A stretch of 64,000 nt of DNA from Arthrobacter ipis (GTDB lineage Bacteria; Actinomycetota; Actinomycetes; Actinomycetales; Micrococcaceae). The position numbers and the translations under genes were made by a program. The notes beneath the pieces were generated by a model. The model made no database searches and was not told the DNA's origin. It saw nothing but the letters and a program-made list of their open reading frames with translations. This document shows positions 29,392 through 52,240 of this stretch, piece after piece (position 1 is the stretch's first letter; each line of letters starts with the position of its first letter). The stretch lies in NCBI RefSeq assembly GCF_014694315.1, contig NZ_JAAOXD010000009.1, positions 320,575-384,574 on the forward strand, given 5' to 3'.

Positions 29392-29724
29392 CTATTCCTC
29401 TCGGTCGATCTCCAAGTAGCTAAGCCCGCTCAAATCCAACCAGTATCGCGTTGGCGTTTCCACCAATCTCAGCAGCACGCCCTGGCAGTCGCGGCACCGC
29501 ACCACAATGCCGGGCGCGTCGGTGAAGACCATGGCCTCGCCAAAAGCCCTGGCTGAGCCGCAATGCCTACAGCGTCCGAGCGCCGCGATGATGTCGATGC
29601 GGAACACTTCGGACAGGGCCCCAGCCGTGGCGTTCCCGTCCACATACGGAATCGGGTCATGGGGAGATGCTGCAATGTCCTGATCTTCCGAGTCGGGGAC
29701 AGCGAAGTCGTCGGCGCCGTTCAC
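29392..29724 (-). CDS. DUF6510 family protein with a zinc-ribbon-like region
   Basis: A 110-residue protein. The core YVDGNATAGALSEVFRIDI, the CRHCG...CRDCQ cysteine pairs (possible metal knuckles) and LDLSGLSYLEI fit the DUF6510 pattern. GTG at 29724 overlaps the stop of the flavin reductase gene (GTGA) and has GGAGGT 5 nt upstream, so the longer open frame is not used. It is the last gene of a three-gene leftward operon after a sulfite-oxidase-fold molybdoenzyme and its reductase, an order I recognise from other actinobacteria. Function is unknown; maturation or regulation of the molybdoenzyme is a guess. Confidence 0.75.
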   Translation of the reverse strand: MNGADDFAVPDSEDQDIAASPHDPIPYVDGNATAGALSEVFRIDIIAALGRCRHCGSARAFGEAMVFTDAPGIVVRCRDCQGVLLRLVETPTRYWLDLSGLSYLEIDREE

Positions 29725-30458
29725 CGGATACCTCCCGTCCCGCCAAACCGTTCGGTCTTTATCGACTCCGGCGAATAGCCGGCCATCACAAGCCAGTCCG
29801 CAACGGTCTCCACGAAAACTGTTTGACCGCAAACGAACACATCAGGATTCACCTCAGCAGGGAAGATCTTGCCCAAAAGGGTGTCCGCAGTAAGGCGCGC
29901 CGGCGTGGCCGGCCAGCCCTCCGGCGTCGAACGCGTATAGACGTAGTCGACCATCAGCTTGGCTGATTCCTGGTCCAATCGACGCAGCTCGTCGCTGTAA
30001 ATCGAAGCGTCCGGGGACCTGAGGGAATAGAGCAACCTGAAAGGGGACCCATTATTGGAAGCCTGATGCGCGCGGATCATCGACATCAGCGGCACCACAC
30101 CTGACCCTCCCCCGATCAGCTGCACCCGGTGCCCATTGCTTGGCCGCCAGACAAACCAGCCGCCCACTGGCCCCCGGATTTCCAACTGGTCCCCAACGGA
30201 CAACTCCCGGACAAGGTAAGGCGACACTTCGCCGTCGGGCAGCTCGTCAACGGTGATTTCCAGGTGCTCACCCGTACTTGCGGATGCCACCGAGTAAGAG
30301 CGGATGGCGGTGTATCCGTCCTCGGCGGTGAGGCGGATGTCAATGTGCTGGCCGGCCAGATGTCCCATCAAGCCATCCACGCGCATCCGAATGGTCCGGG
30401 TTGTGGCGTTTTCAGGTACCACGCCCACCACCTCAGCGACATGCCATACGGAGCTCAC
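29721..30458 (-). CDS. Ferredoxin/flavin-type oxidoreductase (FNR family)
   Basis: A 245-residue FAD/NAD(P)-binding reductase without a fused ferredoxin domain. FAD-binding motif RSYSVAS (about residue 53), then GPVGGWF, the NAD-binding GGGSGVVPLMSM and the C-terminal DVFVCGQTVFVETV and ERFGGTGG. It would pass electrons between NAD(P)H and a redox partner, most likely the molybdopterin protein encoded just upstream (10 nt gap). GTG at 30458 has GAGG upstream. Its stop overlaps the DUF6510 start. Confidence 0.85.
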   Translation of the reverse strand: MSSVWHVAEVVGVVPENATTRTIRMRVDGLMGHLAGQHIDIRLTAEDGYTAIRSYSVASASTGEHLEITVDELPDGEVSPYLVRELSVGDQLEIRGPVGGWFVWRPSNGHRVQLIGGGSGVVPLMSMIRAHQASNNGSPFRLLYSLRSPDASIYSDELRRLDQESAKLMVDYVYTRSTPEGWPATPARLTADTLLGKIFPAEVNPDVFVCGQTVFVETVADWLVMAGYSPESIKTERFGGTGGIR

Positions 30459-30468
30459 GGCAAGAGCC

Positions 30469-31058
30469 TCACGCGTACCGCTCCTCGCGCCACGGATTGC
30501 CGTGAAGATGATAGCCGTTCGATTCCCAGAAACCGGGAACGTCTTCCCCTGTCAGTTCCAAACCATGAATCCACTTGGCGCTTTTCCAGAAATACAAATG
30601 CGGCACCAACAGCCGTGCCGGACCGCCGTGGGCCCGTTCAAGAGGTTCGCCATCGAACTCCCAGGCCACCCATGCCTTGCCGCCCAGGAGGTCCCAAAGC
30701 GGAACATTGGTTGTGTAGCCGCCGAACGAATGCGCCGTCGCGAAGTCGCTAGGCGTTTCCACGTTTTCGAAGAGCGTGTCCAACGAAACTCCACGCCACA
30801 CCATTCCGAGTTTTGACCAGCTGGTCACACAGTGAATGTCTTTAGTGATTTCCTCCTGTGGCGAGGCCAAGAATTCATCCCAAGACCAGGAGAGCCGCAG
30901 GCCATTCTCCGTGGTGATGAAAAACTCCCATTCGTCGATGGGTATAAGCGGAGCGGGCCCCGCCGTCAGGACGGGAAAGTCCTGCGTTTCATGCTGCCCA
31001 GGAGGCAGTGCAGGATCTCGGACCGCCGTCCACGGAAACCGGAAGAAATAATACCCAT
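30469..31058 (-). CDS. Sulfite-oxidase-fold molybdopterin-dependent oxidoreductase, apparent frameshift near the start
   Basis: From codon VRDPALPPGQ onward the frame is an intact SUOX-fold protein: WEFFITTENG, DIHCVTSWSK with the molybdenum-ligand Cys, HSFGGYTTNVPLWDLLGG, GGPARLLVPHLYFWKSAKWI and a final ESNGYHLHGNPWREERY. The family N-terminus, MGIISSGFRGRR, is present at 31058 with an ideal GGAGGT site 5 nt upstream, but in a different frame; one base seems to be missing around 31020-31031. Either the gene is broken, it uses a poor GTG at about 31063 in the downstream frame, or there is a base-call error. It heads an operon with a flavin reductase and DUF6510. Confidence 0.75.
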
Positions 31059-31274
31059 GATGCACCTCCGCAGTGGAGCTCCACCCGGCCCAACGGCCGT
31101 TGTTGCCCCAACCATAGGGCAACGTCTGGGCGTGGTCTAGGCATCAACGGGACTCGGCCGGAGCGTCAAGCAAAACCAATGCCTGGTTGAAGGGAACAAG
31201 CTGTCGGCGGGCGAGTGGCGCCCCGCCAGGAGGGGGCCGGGGTTTGGGCTTTCTGCCCTGGTTAGAGTGAATGC

Positions 31275-44732: not shown

Positions 44733-47591
44733 TCAGTCCGCGGCCCGAAACCGTGCCGCCAGTTCACTCCGGGAGCGGATCCCCAACTTCCCGTAGATGC
44801 GCGTCAGGTGGTACTGCACGGTCTTCTCGGCCAGAAACAGGCTACGGGCAGCCTCCTTGTTGGTTGCGCCCGCGGCCACTAGCTCGGCCACAGCCTGCTC
44901 CTGGGCCGTGAGCTGGACCTGCGGGCGGGTCACGGCGGCGAGCACGGCGTCAGAAGGGTCGGGCAGGTTGCCGACATCAAGCCCTGTCGCCTTCAGCTCC
45001 CGGTCGCATCTGTCCACGTACGTGACAGCGCCCAGGGAATCGTAGAGATCCCTTGCCACGCGAAGCACTGAGGATGCCAGGCGTCTCTTACCGGCCCGTC
45101 GCATGCTCTGCCCGAAGGCAAAGCTCACCCTTGCGCGCAGGTACGGCCGGTTAAGCCCGCGCAAATGTCCCAGTGCCGCCTCGAAGTGCTCCCGGGCCGT
45201 GTCGGGATCCCCTTGGGCGGCAACGAGCCGGCCCCTGGCCCACGCCATGCGTGCCAGGTCAGAGGGCACTGCCCGCTCCCGCCGCACCTGCTCGAAGGCT
45301 GTGAGGAACGTGTCGGCGAGGTCAAGCTGGTCCGTCATGACCAGGGCGTTGACGTAGGTGTCTTGCCAGGGCCAGAAGGACACCCGGTTCTCTGTCCAAG
45401 GATCCAGCTCCGTGAGGGGCTGCAGTACGGCCAGAGCGCTTTCATAGTCCGCACGTGCTTCATGGAAACGCGCCCGGGCGAGACTGGCCGGTACCTGCAT
45501 GGCACGGTAAGTGCCCGGCTGCACGGCCGCTTGGGAGACGTAGTACCGCGCCCGGTCCCAATCCCCACGCATGGACCACAGTTCAGCGGCGGTCCAGTAC
45601 AACAAAGGGCGGATCAGCGGCATCCGCGAGGTCTCGAGCCGCACCGAAGCATGGGCAACGGTGGCGGCGGCCGCATCCCAGTTACCGAGCACGAGGTGGG
45701 TGCGGGCCAGCCACGCCTCGGCCCACAGGGAGATCCGCAATGATCCGCCCCGGAACTCAGTCGGGGCAGCGGCTTCGAAGTTTACAAGCGCTGTCTCGGC
45801 GTCGTCCAGGCGCAAGGCCAGCCAGCCGGCACCCATCTGCACACGCTGCTTCTGGGCATTCTCGGAGGCGTGCTCGAAGGCCCTGCGATAGGAACCCTCT
45901 GCTTCGGACAGCCGGCCCTGGGCGTAAAGGCCCAGCCCGTAGATGGCCTCGGATTCGATGTGGGCCGGGGTGCCTGGCTTCGTGAGGGTCATTGCCTGCT
46001 CCGCCCAACGGGTGATGAGCCGGCCGTCCCACGAAGCCACCCCGTGCAGAACCAGGCGTTGGGCCACCTGCGCGGCGGCCACCGGGTCCCGCTCCGGATT
46101 GCTCGTTCTCCAGGCCATTTCCAACTGGGTCTGGGCACTGTGGTTCTGTCCCGACGCCGTGGAGAGGTAGCCAAGCACGGAGGAGCGCAGCGGTGAGGGC
46201 GCCATGGCGTCGACTGCCGCGGCCCACATCTGCGCCTGCGCCATGTTGCCGGAACCCACGAGGGCGTCTACTGCTCTAAGGAGCCGATCATGGATGGTGC
46301 GGGGGTCCGCGGAGAGCCTCGACGCGGAGAACAGTGCCGTCGAGACATCGCCCCAGGCTCCCACGACAGCCTGTTGGCGGGCGTACTCTTCCAGCTCCGC
46401 GGCCAATTCTTCGTCAGCGCCTGGTGTAGCGGACACGCGGTGGCCCAGGCGATCGCCCTCAAGCTGCACGGTTTTCGCAGCCCGTCGGTGCAGGTCCATC
46501 CGCCGGCTGGGTACGATCTGCTCATAGACGGACTCCGTGGTGCCAGCCTCAAAGAATGTCACCACCGAGCGTGACTGTTCTACTGAAAGGCCCAGCAATC
46601 CGGCTCGATGGCCCTCGTCGAGTGCATCCATCACAGACGCGACTCCGCTGACATAGGCAACCTCAGCTATGCCCGCGCTGCTTCTAAGCACAGACGCGGC
46701 CTCCGCCACGGCGACCAGCTCCGGAGACGCTGCGTGGAGGAGACTGCGCACTCGGGCGCGCACGCGGGAACTAGGCGGCAGGGACGAAAACCACGTCTGC
46801 CAGGTTTCCGGCGGAAGCTCAGCCAGGAGCTCCACAACCGTCTGGGGCAAACCACCGGTATGCTGCACTACGCCGTGGGCCGCCGTCGCGCTCATGTCGA
46901 TGCCGAACTGGCGCAGGGCGAGCTCCTGAACCTGCTCCGGTGACAGTGGTTCCAGCGGAAGGCGGGAAACTTGATGTCCGGTGAGGAAGGCGAGCACGCC
47001 GGCGGGTACGAACTGTGCTTGAGTGGGGTCCAGAGTGACTACGAAAAGGATTCGCTTGGAGCGGAGCCGTCGCATAACGAACACGAGGACGTGCAGGCTT
47101 TCTGCATCCAGGTGCTGGATGTCGTCGACGGCAACGACCACGCTCCCGTGCGATTGAAGCCCATCGAGGTGCGCATTGAGAGTCGAGGCGTAGTTGGCCA
47201 CTTGGGCAGGGCTAAGAGCACCGGCCAGATCCGATGCCGGCGCCGCGGCCCGATCATGGTCCTTGGCCGAGCGCAGGGGCGGGGTGACCATGAGCTGGGA
47301 GTAGCCAGCGAGGGGGAACTGCGCCTCCCACTCGTCGCCGGTAGCGGACAGCACCCGCACACCACGTGCCACGGCGCGGCAGTGCTCCAGGAAGTGATCC
47401 AGCACAGCAGTCTTGCCGGATCCCCGTGGGCCGCTGAGCACCACTGAACGTACGGCCCCCTTGCGCACGGTGCGCAGCGCCTCCAGCAACTTCTCCAAGA
47501 CCTCAGCCCTGCCGAGGAGCGCCAGATCTTCCTCGCTGTCGCCGTGGTGAGGGCCGGGGATCATGCTGGCAAGCTTACTCGAGCGCGGCAT
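44733..47591 (-). CDS. LuxR-family ATP-binding regulator (LAL type, BenR-like)
   Basis: A protein of about 952 residues. Near the N-terminus is an AAA/STAND ATPase with Walker A LSGPRGSGKTAVLDHFLEH and Walker B VVVAVDDIQHLD; a long TPR-like helical middle follows (AQGRLSEAEGSYRRAFEHA and similar); the last 65 residues are a LuxR HTH (LTAQEQAVAELVAAGATNKEAARSLF...YHLTRIYGKLG). The start is uncertain among GTG 47618, ATG 47591 (GCGGGGGC upstream) and ATG 47564. It follows benD on the same strand within 34-61 nt. LuxR-type regulators control benzoate clusters in Corynebacterium and relatives, so a role as activator of benABCD is likely. Confidence 0.88.
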   Translation of the reverse strand: MPRSSKLASMIPGPHHGDSEEDLALLGRAEVLEKLLEALRTVRKGAVRSVVLSGPRGSGKTAVLDHFLEHCRAVARGVRVLSATGDEWEAQFPLAGYSQLMVTPPLRSAKDHDRAAAPASDLAGALSPAQVANYASTLNAHLDGLQSHGSVVVAVDDIQHLDAESLHVLVFVMRRLRSKRILFVVTLDPTQAQFVPAGVLAFLTGHQVSRLPLEPLSPEQVQELALRQFGIDMSATAAHGVVQHTGGLPQTVVELLAELPPETWQTWFSSLPPSSRVRARVRSLLHAASPELVAVAEAASVLRSSAGIAEVAYVSGVASVMDALDEGHRAGLLGLSVEQSRSVVTFFEAGTTESVYEQIVPSRRMDLHRRAAKTVQLEGDRLGHRVSATPGADEELAAELEEYARQQAVVGAWGDVSTALFSASRLSADPRTIHDRLLRAVDALVGSGNMAQAQMWAAAVDAMAPSPLRSSVLGYLSTASGQNHSAQTQLEMAWRTSNPERDPVAAAQVAQRLVLHGVASWDGRLITRWAEQAMTLTKPGTPAHIESEAIYGLGLYAQGRLSEAEGSYRRAFEHASENAQKQRVQMGAGWLALRLDDAETALVNFEAAAPTEFRGGSLRISLWAEAWLARTHLVLGNWDAAAATVAHASVRLETSRMPLIRPLLYWTAAELWSMRGDWDRARYYVSQAAVQPGTYRAMQVPASLARARFHEARADYESALAVLQPLTELDPWTENRVSFWPWQDTYVNALVMTDQLDLADTFLTAFEQVRRERAVPSDLARMAWARGRLVAAQGDPDTAREHFEAALGHLRGLNRPYLRARVSFAFGQSMRRAGKRRLASSVLRVARDLYDSLGAVTYVDRCDRELKATGLDVGNLPDPSDAVLAAVTRPQVQLTAQEQAVAELVAAGATNKEAARSLFLAEKTVQYHLTRIYGKLGIRSRSELAARFRAAD

Positions 47592-47625
47592 TTGCCCCCG
47601 CCAGCGCGTTCCCGTCACGGCATAC

Positions 47626-48453
47626 TCAACCGAGGTCCCCGCCTGCCACCGGGAGGATGCTGCCCGTCACATACGACGCTTCGTCGGATGCCATGAACAC
47701 GATCGGCGCAGCCTGTTCGTCCAGGGTGCCGTATCGCTTCAGAAGGGAGGACTCCACGGTCTGATCCACGATGGTCTGGTACCACGCCTTTTCGGTCGAC
47801 GACTGTGCTTCCGGTCCGCGCTTGACCTTTCTGGGCGGGGCTTCCGTGCCACCGGGGGCGGTAGCGACAACGCGGATACCGTGCGCGGCGACCTCCATGG
47901 CCAAGGACTGGGTCAGGGCGTTGACGCCGCCCTTCGCCGCGGCGTAGGGGACGCGGTGCATCCCGCGGGTGGCGACTGAGGAGACGTTGACGATGGTGCC
48001 CGCCCCCTGCTCGAGCATGGCCGGGAGCACGGCGCGGCAGGACCATAGGGTCGGGAAAAGCGAACGCCGGATCTCCCTCTCGATCTTCTCCTCGTCGTAC
48101 TCTTCGTAGGGGCGGGCCCAGATGGTTCCCCCCACGTTGTTGACGAGTACGTCAATCCTGCCGTGAAGGTCCAGCGCCGCGCTCACGGCCTGTTGTGCGC
48201 CCGTGAAGGTTTCCAGGTCCACGGTCACGGCGATGGCGGACCCTCCGGACCCTGACCTGTTCGCGGCTTCCCGGATCTCCTGGGCGACCTCGTGAACGAT
48301 GTCGGCGCGGTCCACAAGGACGACGGCGCCCCCTTCTGCCCCGATCCGCTCGGCGACCTTTTGGCCGATACCTTGGGCTGAACCGGTTACAACCGCCACC
48401 TTGCCGGCGAAGCGGCCGGGCGTGACGAACTGTCCGGCGTAGGTCGTAACCAT
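47626..48453 (-). CDS. benD: Benzoate cis-diol dehydrogenase
   Basis: A 275-residue SDR that oxidises and decarboxylates 1,6-dihydroxycyclohexa-2,4-diene-1-carboxylate to catechol with NAD. VAVVTGSAQGIGQKVAERI is the cofactor motif; NNVGG, SSVATRG (catalytic Ser) and the YAAAKGG motif (catalytic Tyr and Lys) are intact. The WARPYEEYDEEKIEREIRRSLFPTLW segment is typical of BenD. Its ATG overlaps the benC stop by one base (TGATG), so it is coupled to benC. It completes benzoate-to-catechol conversion with BenABC. Confidence 0.94.
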   Translation of the reverse strand: MVTTYAGQFVTPGRFAGKVAVVTGSAQGIGQKVAERIGAEGGAVVLVDRADIVHEVAQEIREAANRSGSGGSAIAVTVDLETFTGAQQAVSAALDLHGRIDVLVNNVGGTIWARPYEEYDEEKIEREIRRSLFPTLWSCRAVLPAMLEQGAGTIVNVSSVATRGMHRVPYAAAKGGVNALTQSLAMEVAAHGIRVVATAPGGTEAPPRKVKRGPEAQSSTEKAWYQTIVDQTVESSLLKRYGTLDEQAAPIVFMASDEASYVTGSILPVAGGDLG

Positions 48454-50027
48454 CAGGAAACTTTGCCTTTGGCGTCGATAGCCCCGGACATAGTGCCCTT
48501 GGCGTCGCGGGCGTGAGCCATAATGACTTCCCGGGCGCGCTCCTTGTCCTGGAGCTCGAATGCGGCCACGAGTTCGAGGTGGTCCTGGGCGACCCGCTCG
48601 AAGATTTCTGTGCCCTTCACGAAGGTCGCTGCCATCTGTGCGTGAACGTCGAGCCGTCGGTATGACTCCAGCAGCATCGGGTTATCGCAGATCGTGAAGA
48701 GGTACTCGTGGAACTCTTCGTTGGTCCTTACGTACTGTTCCGGGTCGAGGACCCTGCCCAAGTCGACGGCGCGTGTGGTCGCCTCGGCGAGGCGGCGGAA
48801 CTGGTTCAGCTGCTCCTCGCTGAGGCGGCCCACCATCAGTTCGGTCACCGCAAGTTCAAGGCCCATCCGCGCTTCCAGGTGGGCGAAACTGTCCTCCTTA
48901 CGGAATTCAAGCCGGCCGGTCTCCAGTGAAGAAATCGCCTGGACGCGACTGACCGTGTCTCCTTCGGTCTCCAGCTTCTCCACCGGCGCCGGCGCGCCTG
49001 TCTCGTCGTCGCCGCCAGTGGTTTCCTTCGGGGCGAAACGCTCGAAATAGAAGTTGGCCGGCCGGATGTCCTCGGTGTCCAGCCACTTGGAAACGGCGTT
49101 CACCATGGGCGGCGGACCGCACAGGTAAATATCGACGTCGCCGTCGTTCAGGTGGGACGGCTGAATGATCTGGGTGACATATCCCGTGTGCGGGGCGGAG
49201 GTACCGGCCTCGGAGGCGATGTAGTCCCAGGTGAAGCCCGGCAGCTTCGCTTCGTAGGTGCGCAGCCAGTCGAGCCCGACGATGTCGGCCTCACGGGAGA
49301 CGCCGTAAATCAGGTGGACCGCGGTGGCCGGCGGGTCTTCGGAGAGCTTTTCCAGGATTGACAGGAGGGGCGCGAGTCCGGTGCCGCCTGCGAGCAGAAG
49401 GAGGGGGCGCTTTGGTTCGCGGAGGAAGAATGAACCGTAGGGGCCGGTGAACTCAATTGTGTCCCCGACTGCGGCCCGGTCACGCAGGTACTCAGACATC
49501 GCGCCCTGCGGGGTTATGCGCACCATGAAGGACGCGTCCGCCCCCTCGGGACCATTGCTGAAGGAGTACGAGCGCTCGGCGTCGGCGCCCGGGACCTTGA
49601 TGTTGACGTACTGGCCGGGCAGGAACGCCAGGGCGTCCCGGTTCTGCACCTCCAGGGCGAAGGAGATCGTGGACTCCGAGTGCCTGTCCAGCTCTTTGAG
49701 GGTCGAGGTGAACGTGGCGGCGGAGGTCTTGGCGGATTCCGAAGTGGCTGGGATCTGGATGGCGAGGTCTGATTCCGGGACGGCCTGGCACGTGAGCAGG
49801 TAACCCTTCTCGAGCTCCTCCTCGGTCATGGCGTCGTCAATGTAGTCCCCAGGGTCAAACGAGCCTGAGTCGCAAAAGGCCTTACATGTACCGCAGGCGC
49901 CGTCGCGGCAGTCTGAGGGGATGTTGATGCGCGCCTTGTATGCGGCGTCCATGACGGTCTCATAGTCGCCGACCTTGATGACCTTGGTGACGCCGTCCTC
50001 GAAGCTGAGGGCTACCTGATGGCCCAT
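48453..50027 (-). CDS. benC: Benzoate 1,2-dioxygenase reductase with C-terminal FCD-like domain
   Basis: A 524-residue protein against about 340 for gamma-proteobacterial BenC. Residues 1-95 are a plant-type [2Fe-2S] ferredoxin (Cys40, Cys45, Cys48, Cys80); 105-205 bind FAD (RSYSFSNGP); 208-335 bind NADH (LLAGGTGLAPLLS, YLCGPPPMV). This part passes electrons from NADH to BenAB. After a linker (336-380), residues 380-515 form an all-helical region like the FCD domain of GntR/FadR regulators: LEARMGLELAVTEL, NEEFHEYLFTICDNPMLLE, QDHLELVAAFELQDKERAREVIMAH, with candidate metal ligands Asn436, His440, His483 and His505. There is no DNA-binding domain. Rhodococcus BopZ is known to have a long C-terminal extension. 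ATG at 50027 has AGGAGG upstream. Confidence 0.93.
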   Translation of the reverse strand: MGHQVALSFEDGVTKVIKVGDYETVMDAAYKARINIPSDCRDGACGTCKAFCDSGSFDPGDYIDDAMTEEELEKGYLLTCQAVPESDLAIQIPATSESAKTSAATFTSTLKELDRHSESTISFALEVQNRDALAFLPGQYVNIKVPGADAERSYSFSNGPEGADASFMVRITPQGAMSEYLRDRAAVGDTIEFTGPYGSFFLREPKRPLLLLAGGTGLAPLLSILEKLSEDPPATAVHLIYGVSREADIVGLDWLRTYEAKLPGFTWDYIASEAGTSAPHTGYVTQIIQPSHLNDGDVDIYLCGPPPMVNAVSKWLDTEDIRPANFYFERFAPKETTGGDDETGAPAPVEKLETEGDTVSRVQAISSLETGRLEFRKEDSFAHLEARMGLELAVTELMVGRLSEEQLNQFRRLAEATTRAVDLGRVLDPEQYVRTNEEFHEYLFTICDNPMLLESYRRLDVHAQMAATFVKGTEIFERVAQDHLELVAAFELQDKERAREVIMAHARDAKGTMSGAIDAKGKVS

Positions 50028-50157
50028 GATTTCCTCCTGGCTGGGGCTGCGTCCTCGCAACCCCGAAAGTTAGTGCTGTTATCTCGTTGACGGTGATGCC
50101 GGTCAGGATGCTCCTGACTGTGGCCGTGCCATCGGCCACGGCCGGCACGGCATGGCC

Positions 50158-50694
50158 TCAGACCATGTAGACATCCACGACGTGGTGGATGTAATCGTTC
50201 TTCAAGACAACCTTCTTCTTCATGATCACCGGCTCTTCGCCGGAGAGATCGATGGTGTAGAAGCTCGTGCCGAAATATGTGTCTGTGGTGTTGTAGCGGA
50301 AGTACAGGGTGAACCAGTTGAAGCGAACCTTCACCTGGTCGCCGTCGTGCTCCAGGATCTCAATATTCGTGATGTTGTGCCCGGTGCGGGGCTCGGGCAG
50401 TGACGTCGCCGAGGAACGGTCCGTTTTGATCCGGAACACCCGGTCCTCGATGCCGCCACGGTTGTCGTAGTAGATCAGCGAGATCTCGTTCTGAGGATCC
50501 TCTGTGAGCCGATCATCGACATCCCATGCCGGCATCCAGTATTCGGAGTCCGGGTGGTAGCACTGGAGCCACTCGTCGAAATGGCGGTCGTCGAGGAGGC
50601 GGGCCTCCTTGTACAGGAACGCACGCACGGTCTCGAGGGCGGCGATGTCCTCCGCGCTTTTCAGCGCGGGCAGGGGGTTAAGTAGGTTGACCAT
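50158..50694 (-). CDS. benB: Benzoate 1,2-dioxygenase small (beta) subunit
   Basis: A 178-residue ring-hydroxylating dioxygenase beta subunit with the NTF2-like fold. EARLLDDRHFDEWLQCYHPDSEYWMPAW, RTGHNITNIEIL and the closing YIHHVVDVYMV match BenB/XylY. It has a structural role in the alpha3-beta3 oxygenase. It lies 38 nt after benA and 130 nt before benC, in the order benABCD. ATG at 50694; the ribosome site (GAGAG) is weak, which may reflect coupling to benA. Confidence 0.94.
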   Translation of the reverse strand: MVNLLNPLPALKSAEDIAALETVRAFLYKEARLLDDRHFDEWLQCYHPDSEYWMPAWDVDDRLTEDPQNEISLIYYDNRGGIEDRVFRIKTDRSSATSLPEPRTGHNITNIEILEHDGDQVKVRFNWFTLYFRYNTTDTYFGTSFYTIDLSGEEPVIMKKKVVLKNDYIHHVVDVYMV

Positions 50695-50732: not shown

Positions 50733-52115
50733 TTAGACAGTGACCGACACGGTTTCGTTGGTGGACGCTTCCGCCTCCGTGAGAGCCTTGTCCATAACTT
50801 CCTTCCAGTACCCGTGCTGGATCGGGTAGAGCCCTTCGTCCTCAGTGCGAACGCCAGAGGCGATTACCCGTGTCATGCCCAGCGCCGTGGCCTGTTCGTC
50901 AGGGCCGGTGATCTCGTGGGTGGAGCCGCGCGACATGTCGTTCCACGGCGCCGACGTGGCCCAGTAGGTCTTGTTGCAGGAGCGGAACTCCTCGAGGTCG
51001 TCCGGTGTCGCCATACCGGTCGCGTTGAAGAAGTCCTCGTACTGGCGAATGCGCTTTGAGCGGTTCTCCTGGGACTCCCCCTTGGGGGCAATGCAGTAGA
51101 TCGTGACCTCGGTCTGGTCAGCGGAGATCGGCCGGAAGTGACGGATCTGCGAGGAGAACTGGTCCATGATGTAGACGTTGGGGTACAGGCAAAGGTTGCG
51201 CGAGATGTTGATCATGAAGTTCGCCATCTCCTCGCCGTACTTCTCGACGAGCTCGTCGCGGCGGTCCCAGAGGGGACGGTCCTGGGGGTTGGTCCACTCC
51301 TGCCAGAGCAGCAGGTGTCCGTGGTCGTAGGAATAGAAGCCGCCCTTGACCTTCCCCCATTTACCGGCGTCCATGGCTTTGGTCTTGTTGGCGGAGTCAC
51401 CGGCACTGCGGCGGGCTGTGGTCGCGGCGTAGTTCCAGTGCACAGCGGTGACATGGTAGCCGTCGGCGCCGTTTTCTGCCTGCACCTTCCAGTTGCCGTC
51501 GTAGGTGTAAGTGGAAGACCCGCGCAGTACTTCGAGTCCCTCCGGAGACTGGTCCACGATTGAGTCGATCACCTTAGTCGCGTCTCCCAGGTGTTCCTCG
51601 AGCGGAAGGACGTCCGCATTCAGGGAACCAAACAGGAATCCGCGGTACGAGTCAAAGCGGGCGACCTTGGTGAGGTCGTGCGAGCCCTCCTTGTTGAAGG
51701 TCTCCGGGTATCCGGCATTGCGGGAATCCTTAACCTTCAGCAGCTCCCCTGAATTTTTGAAGGTCCAGCCGTGGAACGGGCAGGTGAAGGTGGTTCTGTT
51801 GTCAGTTTTGCGGCGGCACAGCATCGCGCCCCGGTGCGAGCAGGCGTTGACGATGCAGTTGATTTTCTCGTCCTTGTCCCGGGTGATCATCACCGGAGTC
51901 CGCCCAATGTAGGTAGTGAAGTAGTCGCCCACGTTGGGAATCTGGGATTCATGTGCGAGGTAGACCCAATTGCCCTCGAAGATGTGCTTCATCTCGAGTT
52001 CGAATATCTCCTGGTCAGTGAAGATTTCGCGTTTTGCGCGGATGACTCCGTTCTCACGATCATCAATCACGGCGTCGGCAAGGACCTCACGGACACGGGT
52101 CAGGTTCTCGGTCAT
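50733..52115 (-). CDS. benA: Benzoate 1,2-dioxygenase large (alpha) subunit
   Basis: A 460-residue Rieske non-heme iron oxygenase subunit that dihydroxylates benzoate to the cis-diol. The Rieske cluster ligands are Cys92-x-His94 (ACSHRG) and Cys112-x2-His115 (CPFHGW). The mononuclear iron site is in [13 protein letters not shown], with His221 and His226 and the bridging Asp218. [14 protein letters not shown] and the [16 protein letters not shown] segment are BenA/XylX-like. ATG at 52115 was chosen for its GGAGC ribosome site; the upstream extension has none. It is the first gene of benABCD and divergent from catA. Confidence 0.95.
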
Positions 52116-52240
52116 CACGTGCTCCTTCTTCGGAGATTGGGGGCGGCAAGCGGCGTCCCGGGGGAACAGGGCTTCTGCCCTCTGAGGAAAAGGTATGTGA
52201 GCCATTCTTGCCCAGCGTGACAGCTCTCACATCAGGTAAA

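Follow-up and report, generated by a model that had tools for sequence, protein, structure and literature searches.

An FCD effector domain tethered to the benzoate dioxygenase reductase of Arthrobacter ipis: a candidate metal-dependent carboxylate-binding module

The benC product of Arthrobacter ipis is a complete benzoate dioxygenase reductase, carrying electrons from NADH through FAD to a [2Fe-2S] center, to which an FCD domain of the kind found in GntR regulators is flexibly tethered. By analogy with characterized FCD proteins and with a regulated oxygenase reductase, we propose, with a probability of about one half, that this FCD acts as a metal-dependent carboxylate-binding module that would tune or organize electron delivery. 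We know of no Rieske dioxygenase system with enzyme-level gating by such a sensor. If the proposal is correct, regulation of benzoate breakdown would shift from gene control to the enzyme, the length of many actinobacterial BenC proteins would be accounted for, and a regulator's sensor would have found a second use within an enzyme, in three different architectures.

The ben locus and the reductase half

In the window (the whole 64-kb stretch of A. ipis DNA that was analyzed), benC-FCD starts at an ATG at position 50027 of the minus strand, and benA, benB and benD are all present beside it (Table 1). The TGA stop codon of benC-FCD (48455-48453) overlaps the benD ATG by one base, the shared A of TGATG. 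The LuxR/LAL-type gene downstream of benD is likely the regulator of the ben operon. The next BenC-like domain within the window belongs to an FNR-type reductase (245 aa) that follows a sulfite-oxidase-like molybdopterin protein (217 aa, by eye) at 29721-31122 on the minus strand.

Table 1. Features of the A. ipis ben locus and of the BenC-FCD protein
Feature	Coordinates	Strand	Basis
benC-FCD gene, whole fusion, 524 aa	48453..50027	-	Translation; Pfam/NCBIfam
AGGAGG ribosome-binding site, 5 nt ahead of the benC-FCD ATG	50033..50038	-	Sequence
benA, dioxygenase large subunit (longest ORF), upstream of benC-FCD	50733..52205	-	ORF, context
benB, dioxygenase small subunit, upstream of benC-FCD	50158..50694	-	ORF; matches benB of annotated ben operons
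benD, cis-diol dehydrogenase (SDR), next gene after benC-FCD	47626..48453	-	ORF, junction, fusions
LuxR/LAL-type regulator, downstream of benD	44733..47618	-	ORF; same position in relatives
Fer2 [2Fe-2S] domain, residues 10-84	49776..50000	-	Pfam, alignment
FAD_binding_6 domain, residues 109-200, RSYS motif 152-155	49428..49703	-	Pfam, alignment
NAD_binding_1 domain, residues 211-313	49089..49397	-	Pfam
Predicted disordered linker, residues 332-374	48906..49034	-	pLDDT <50 in full-length model; fastest-changing region
FCD domain (PF07729), residues 384-507 (model 369-524, seven helices)	48507..48878	-	Pfam, AF2, Foldseek
R387, conserved ligand-carboxylate arginine position	48867..48869	-	Invariant; Arg here in McbR/CitO/DgoR (PMC4746285, PMC7674646)
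N436, putative metal ligand 1	48720..48722	-	Invariant; Asn137 of Atu1419, Asn144 of Ps5454 (PMC7797058, PMC7674646)
H440, putative metal ligand 2	48708..48710	-	Invariant; His141 of Atu1419
H483, putative metal ligand 3	48579..48581	-	Invariant; His192 of Atu1419
H505, putative metal ligand 4	48513..48515	-	Invariant; His214 of Atu1419, 22-residue spacing kept

Residues 3-333 match the NCBIfam BenC model (NF040810) at 474.6 bits against an equivalog cut-off of 430, and the reductase motifs are intact and invariant in the alignment, namely Cys40, 45, 48 and 80 of the Fer2 domain, RSYS, GGTG and CGPP. The BenC structure PDB 1krh has the same domains and motifs and aligns with residues 2-332 over nearly its whole chain (E=9e-107); at 338 aa, however, it stops before the linker and FCD of the A. 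ipis protein. The first-pass annotation of this DNA had put the excess over classical BenC at some 185 residues, in good agreement with the approximately 190 found after residue 334.

Identity and fold of the C-terminal domain

The C-terminal region was assigned to FCD by Pfam with E=5e-18 and 66.1 bits, well above the gathering cut-off of 24.3. A model of residues 369-524 produced by AlphaFold2 from a 36-sequence alignment was confident (mean pLDDT 94.5, pTM 0.89), and all 50 PDB matches listed by Foldseek were FCD-type GntR regulators or FCD domains, with query TM-scores of 0.60-0.73; the best placed among the matches listed were VanR Atu1419, McbR, DhdR and NanR. Chance similarity to FCD is ruled out by the Pfam score, the model and the Foldseek matches. 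A search of this kind with a predicted structure had been named in advance by the first-pass annotation, and its outcome, together with the Pfam score, bears out the FCD layout which that annotation had read after the NADH-binding module. The motifs it listed are all present: NEEFH spans N436 to H440, CDNP includes N449, QDH contains H483 and AHARD contains H505. It was also right that a DNA-binding winged helix is absent, as a Pfam search allowing E-values up to 10 gave no HTH family, GntR and MarR included, which argues against a DNA-binding regulator. Where a winged helix would precede the FCD in a GntR/FadR regulator, the A. ipis protein has the reductase and a disordered linker.

In the AlphaFold monomer prediction of full-length BenC-FCD, no fixed docking of the FCD onto the reductase was seen. 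Given the pTM of 0.53 and the 43-residue linker with pLDDT <50, the FCD is best described as tethered, with no direct reductase contact predicted. Linkers in the triple fusions described below measure 88-249 aa. Among 58 BenD fusions, most BenC-FCD linkers carry one to four copies of the motif aR-x-[IVL]-A-G-Q-x-[VLI]-[FLW]-P-A, the [AC]GQ of which was observed 109 times against 5.3 expected and which is absent from BenA, BenB and the regulators of the same loci. The N-terminus of A. ipis BenD (48409-48453) begins MVTTYAGQFVTPGRF and may be compared with this motif. The repeated linker motif is possibly a docking motif.

The metal and ligand site

The VanR-type regulator Atu1419 binds zinc through Asn137, His141, His192 and His214 (PMC7797058), and in Ps5454 the metal ligands are Asn144, His148, His192 and His214 (PMC7674646). 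The A. ipis FCD keeps the 4- and 22-residue spacings of these ligands (N-x3-H ... H-x21-H). R387 stands at the position of the conserved ligand arginine and Y432 at the place of the CitO F143 "gatekeeper", both equivalences being drawn by spacing and tentative (PMC4746285, PMC7674646).

N436, H440, H483, H505 and R387 are invariant in A. ipis and 36 relatives, which are family members from a whole-protein search and were chosen independently of the FCD pattern. Only 19 of the 136 FCD columns are invariant in this set and all five literature-defined site columns are among them, an overlap with a p of about 3e-5 if columns are exchangeable, a figure that ignores ancestry. T512, N449 and E391 are likewise invariant. 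The same site residues are found in the 80 loci recovered with an FCD query (see below), P450 fusions included, in counts partly biased by the search patterns. Comparison with close relatives gave an FCD dN/dS of 0.10-0.24, above that of the reductase and clearly purifying. Residue conservation thus supports an intact metal and arginine site, which argues for ligand binding. The same data bear on the notion that the FCD is a functionless relic, or that DNA-binding regulation is a second function of the protein. Some Micrococcaceae ben operons do lack the FCD, but purifying selection, the invariant site, conservation across phyla and the Pfam result given above make either version very improbable.

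Three architectures of BenC-FCD

A match running from BenC through the FCD was found in 43 of 298 genomes of the family (A. ipis included), and a further 21 have shorter BenC-like proteins only. When contigs were scanned with the FCD sequence alone, 80 loci were recovered, and in every one a single open frame places BenC ahead of the FCD. The recurrence of the layout in the 43 genomes and the 80 named loci rules out an artefactual fusion or a sequencing error. In 57 of the 80 loci, BenC-FCD runs on into BenD as one chain (Mycobacterium, Gordonia, Rhodococcus, Nocardia, Amycolatopsis, Pseudonocardia, Nocardioides, Geodermatophilus, Kribbella and others), and in 18 it runs on into a cytochrome P450 (Paraburkholderia, Burkholderia, Caballeronia, Cupriavidus, Kluyvera). 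The remaining five (Kocuria, Arthrobacter) share the A. ipis arrangement, in which the chain ends after the FCD and benD follows as a separate gene. The family therefore occurs as BenC-FCD with a separate benD in Micrococcaceae, BenC-FCD-BenD in other actinobacteria and BenC-FCD-P450 in Burkholderiaceae and Kluyvera. The domains of example fusions from Tsukamurella and Paraburkholderia were confirmed by Pfam and NCBIfam. BenD fusions are located in ben operons containing benA and benB. No benAB was found near the P450 fusions within the flanks fetched, so a ligand shared by all three types need not be benzoate or its diol.

The P450 type (L046-L063, L043 and L044, e.g., L044:8001-10787) is a 929-residue chain in reductase-first order, with an I-helix AGHDTT and the heme motif FGNGMHKCLG, and is publicly annotated as "BenC" only. 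It is possibly a new kind of one-chain P450; such a natural, reductase-first enzyme, as it appears to be, would be of practical interest for biocatalysis. The enterobacterium Kluyvera cryocrescens (L063) has a P450-type fusion whose FCD is 74% identical to that of Paraburkholderia, which suggests horizontal transfer.

The in-frame continuation of homologues into BenD or P450 was overlooked in the first-pass annotation, and because of it a scaffold role has to be taken seriously as an alternative to ligand sensing. The FCD could be mainly an assembly module that di- or tetramerizes as in GntR regulators and brings BenC beside BenD or the P450, a ligand being secondary or structural (metal only). 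In keeping with this, 75 of the 80 loci have the FCD exactly at the junction of the reductase with BenD or P450, benC and benD overlap by one base in A. ipis, and the disordered linkers are long. The same holds for the Atu1419 tetramer, in which effector domains form interfaces and zinc also stabilizes the protein (PMC7797058). In the split form, however, a pure scaffold could do without an invariant ligand arginine and a full set of four invariant metal ligands, and FadR folds without the metal residues (PMC7674646). On balance we consider a mainly assembling role rather unlikely.

Origin and loss of the FCD

The A. ipis genome encodes 29 FCD domains; that of BenC-FCD is the only one in a 538-aa frame, the frames of the other 28 measuring 142-397 aa. 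Among the FCDs in 395 class genomes, those of BenC type scored at least 217 bits. Flavin reductase-GntR-FCD proteins came next with 59-95 bits, and no other FCD protein exceeded about 62 bits. In the FCD tree, 88% of bootstraps recovered all BenC types as one group, whose earliest branch is the P450 type. In this tree, which has many long branches, the FCDs of BenC and of the flavin reductases were set apart together from those of 20 regulators of the same genome (98/93). The neighboring flavin-reductase proteins consist of a flavin reductase, a complete GntR winged helix and an FCD (L177:4187-5413, L178:3249-4478, L179:4234-5430, L180:4278-5405), and the gene for the first adjoins one for a luciferase-like monooxygenase. 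From their domain content, they may be reductases that also bind DNA.

In the BenC tree, FCD-less Micrococcaceae, some with complete ben operons, were nested among FCD-bearing ones, and an exclusive clade of FCD-bearing reductases was rejected by the AU test (p=0.0037). Given this rejection and the single FCD origin in the FCD tree, the simplest reading is a single gain of the FCD, with subsequent loss in some Micrococcaceae. The BenC part may also have been exchanged between lineages. As the FCD is missing from some complete ben operons, it would be an accessory or modulatory part. Fission of an ancestral triple fusion is disfavored, because the BenC-FCD-BenD sequences form one clade that excludes the A. 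ipis group; the BenD fusion accordingly looks derived.

Proposed function

The benzoate cis-diol, the product of BenAB and the substrate of BenD, is a 2-hydroxycarboxylate. FCD regulators of similar compounds are known: LldR responds to lactate (PMC4746285), and DhdR, which responds to 2-hydroxyglutarate, is among the PDB matches listed. We propose that the FCD of BenC would hold a divalent metal, and that this metal would bind a pathway carboxylate, either benzoate or the cis-diol, the latter being the more attractive candidate for its likeness to these known FCD ligands. Ligand binding would then alter electron delivery by the reductase or its association with BenAB and BenD, such that most NADH consumption would coincide with the presence of substrate or product. 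This would be an analogue of the substrate-relieved autoinhibition of HpaC, with FCD in place of MarR.

The first-pass annotation had read the domain as a small-molecule or metal sensor that might tune electron delivery. Its FCD identity, the absence of a DNA-binding domain and, at the level of sequence, the intact metal and carboxylate site all stand; the binding of benzoate, diol or metal and the tuning are inferred. Both are plausible in view of the invariant site, the recurrence of oxygenase reductases as partners of this FCD branch and the HpaC precedent (PMC10816480). An organizing role is favored by the placement of the FCD, which has a reductase that consumes NADH on one side and a dehydrogenase that produces it on the other. 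A related role would be metabolite holding or channeling, in which the FCD binds the BenAB-made cis-diol carboxylate via its metal and hands the diol to BenD. The ligands of the lactate and 2-hydroxyglutarate regulators and the in-frame position of the FCD ahead of BenD in 57 of 80 loci fit such a transfer, but the P450 fusions share the site residues without benAB next door, and we regard it as improbable. Returning to the carboxylate-binding module, a fuller evolutionary account, which we hold tentatively, is that a Rieske-oxygenase reductase captured an FCD once and that it became a metal-dependent carboxylate switch or holder coupling electron delivery to the next enzyme, later joined in one chain with the diol dehydrogenase or a P450.

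Comparison with known systems

No study of an FCD on BenC was found in the open-access literature, which was the part searched. A 2025 paper on Rhodococcus TG-1 labels benC "FCD domain-containing protein" and leaves the domain undiscussed (PMC11858498). The TG-1 protein is probably of the same family and its gene is up-regulated with benA, benB and benD; the name, however, comes from annotation only and the domain is unanalyzed there. Annotation thus already reveals the FCD, but the literature that could be searched seems to contain no description of what the domain means, of its intact metal site or of the three architectures.

With the VanR/FadR-group GntR regulators (Atu1419, Ps5454, TM0439, LldR, DhdR, DgoR), the A. 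ipis FCD shares the fold, the metal ligands and the ligand arginine, but it lacks a winged helix and sits on the C-terminus of an oxygenase reductase. The flavin reductase-GntR-FCD proteins are the nearest other FCD branch and also pair the domain with an oxygenase-type reductase; in contrast to BenC-FCD, they keep the GntR winged helix, their reductase is a flavin reductase rather than BenC, and Tyr replaces H505 (by eye). The closest functional parallel is HpaC (C1), the reductase of 4-hydroxyphenylacetate hydroxylase from Acinetobacter baumannii, which likewise joins an oxygenase reductase to a C-terminal regulator-derived domain. In HpaC, binding of 4-HPA to the C-terminal MarR domain relieves autoinhibition, and flavin reduction becomes at least 30-fold faster (PMC10816480). 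The A. ipis protein is similarly a reductase fused to the effector domain of a regulator, but with FCD on a BenC-type reductase instead of MarR on a flavin reductase; as the families differ on both sides, HpaC is an analogue and not a homologue.
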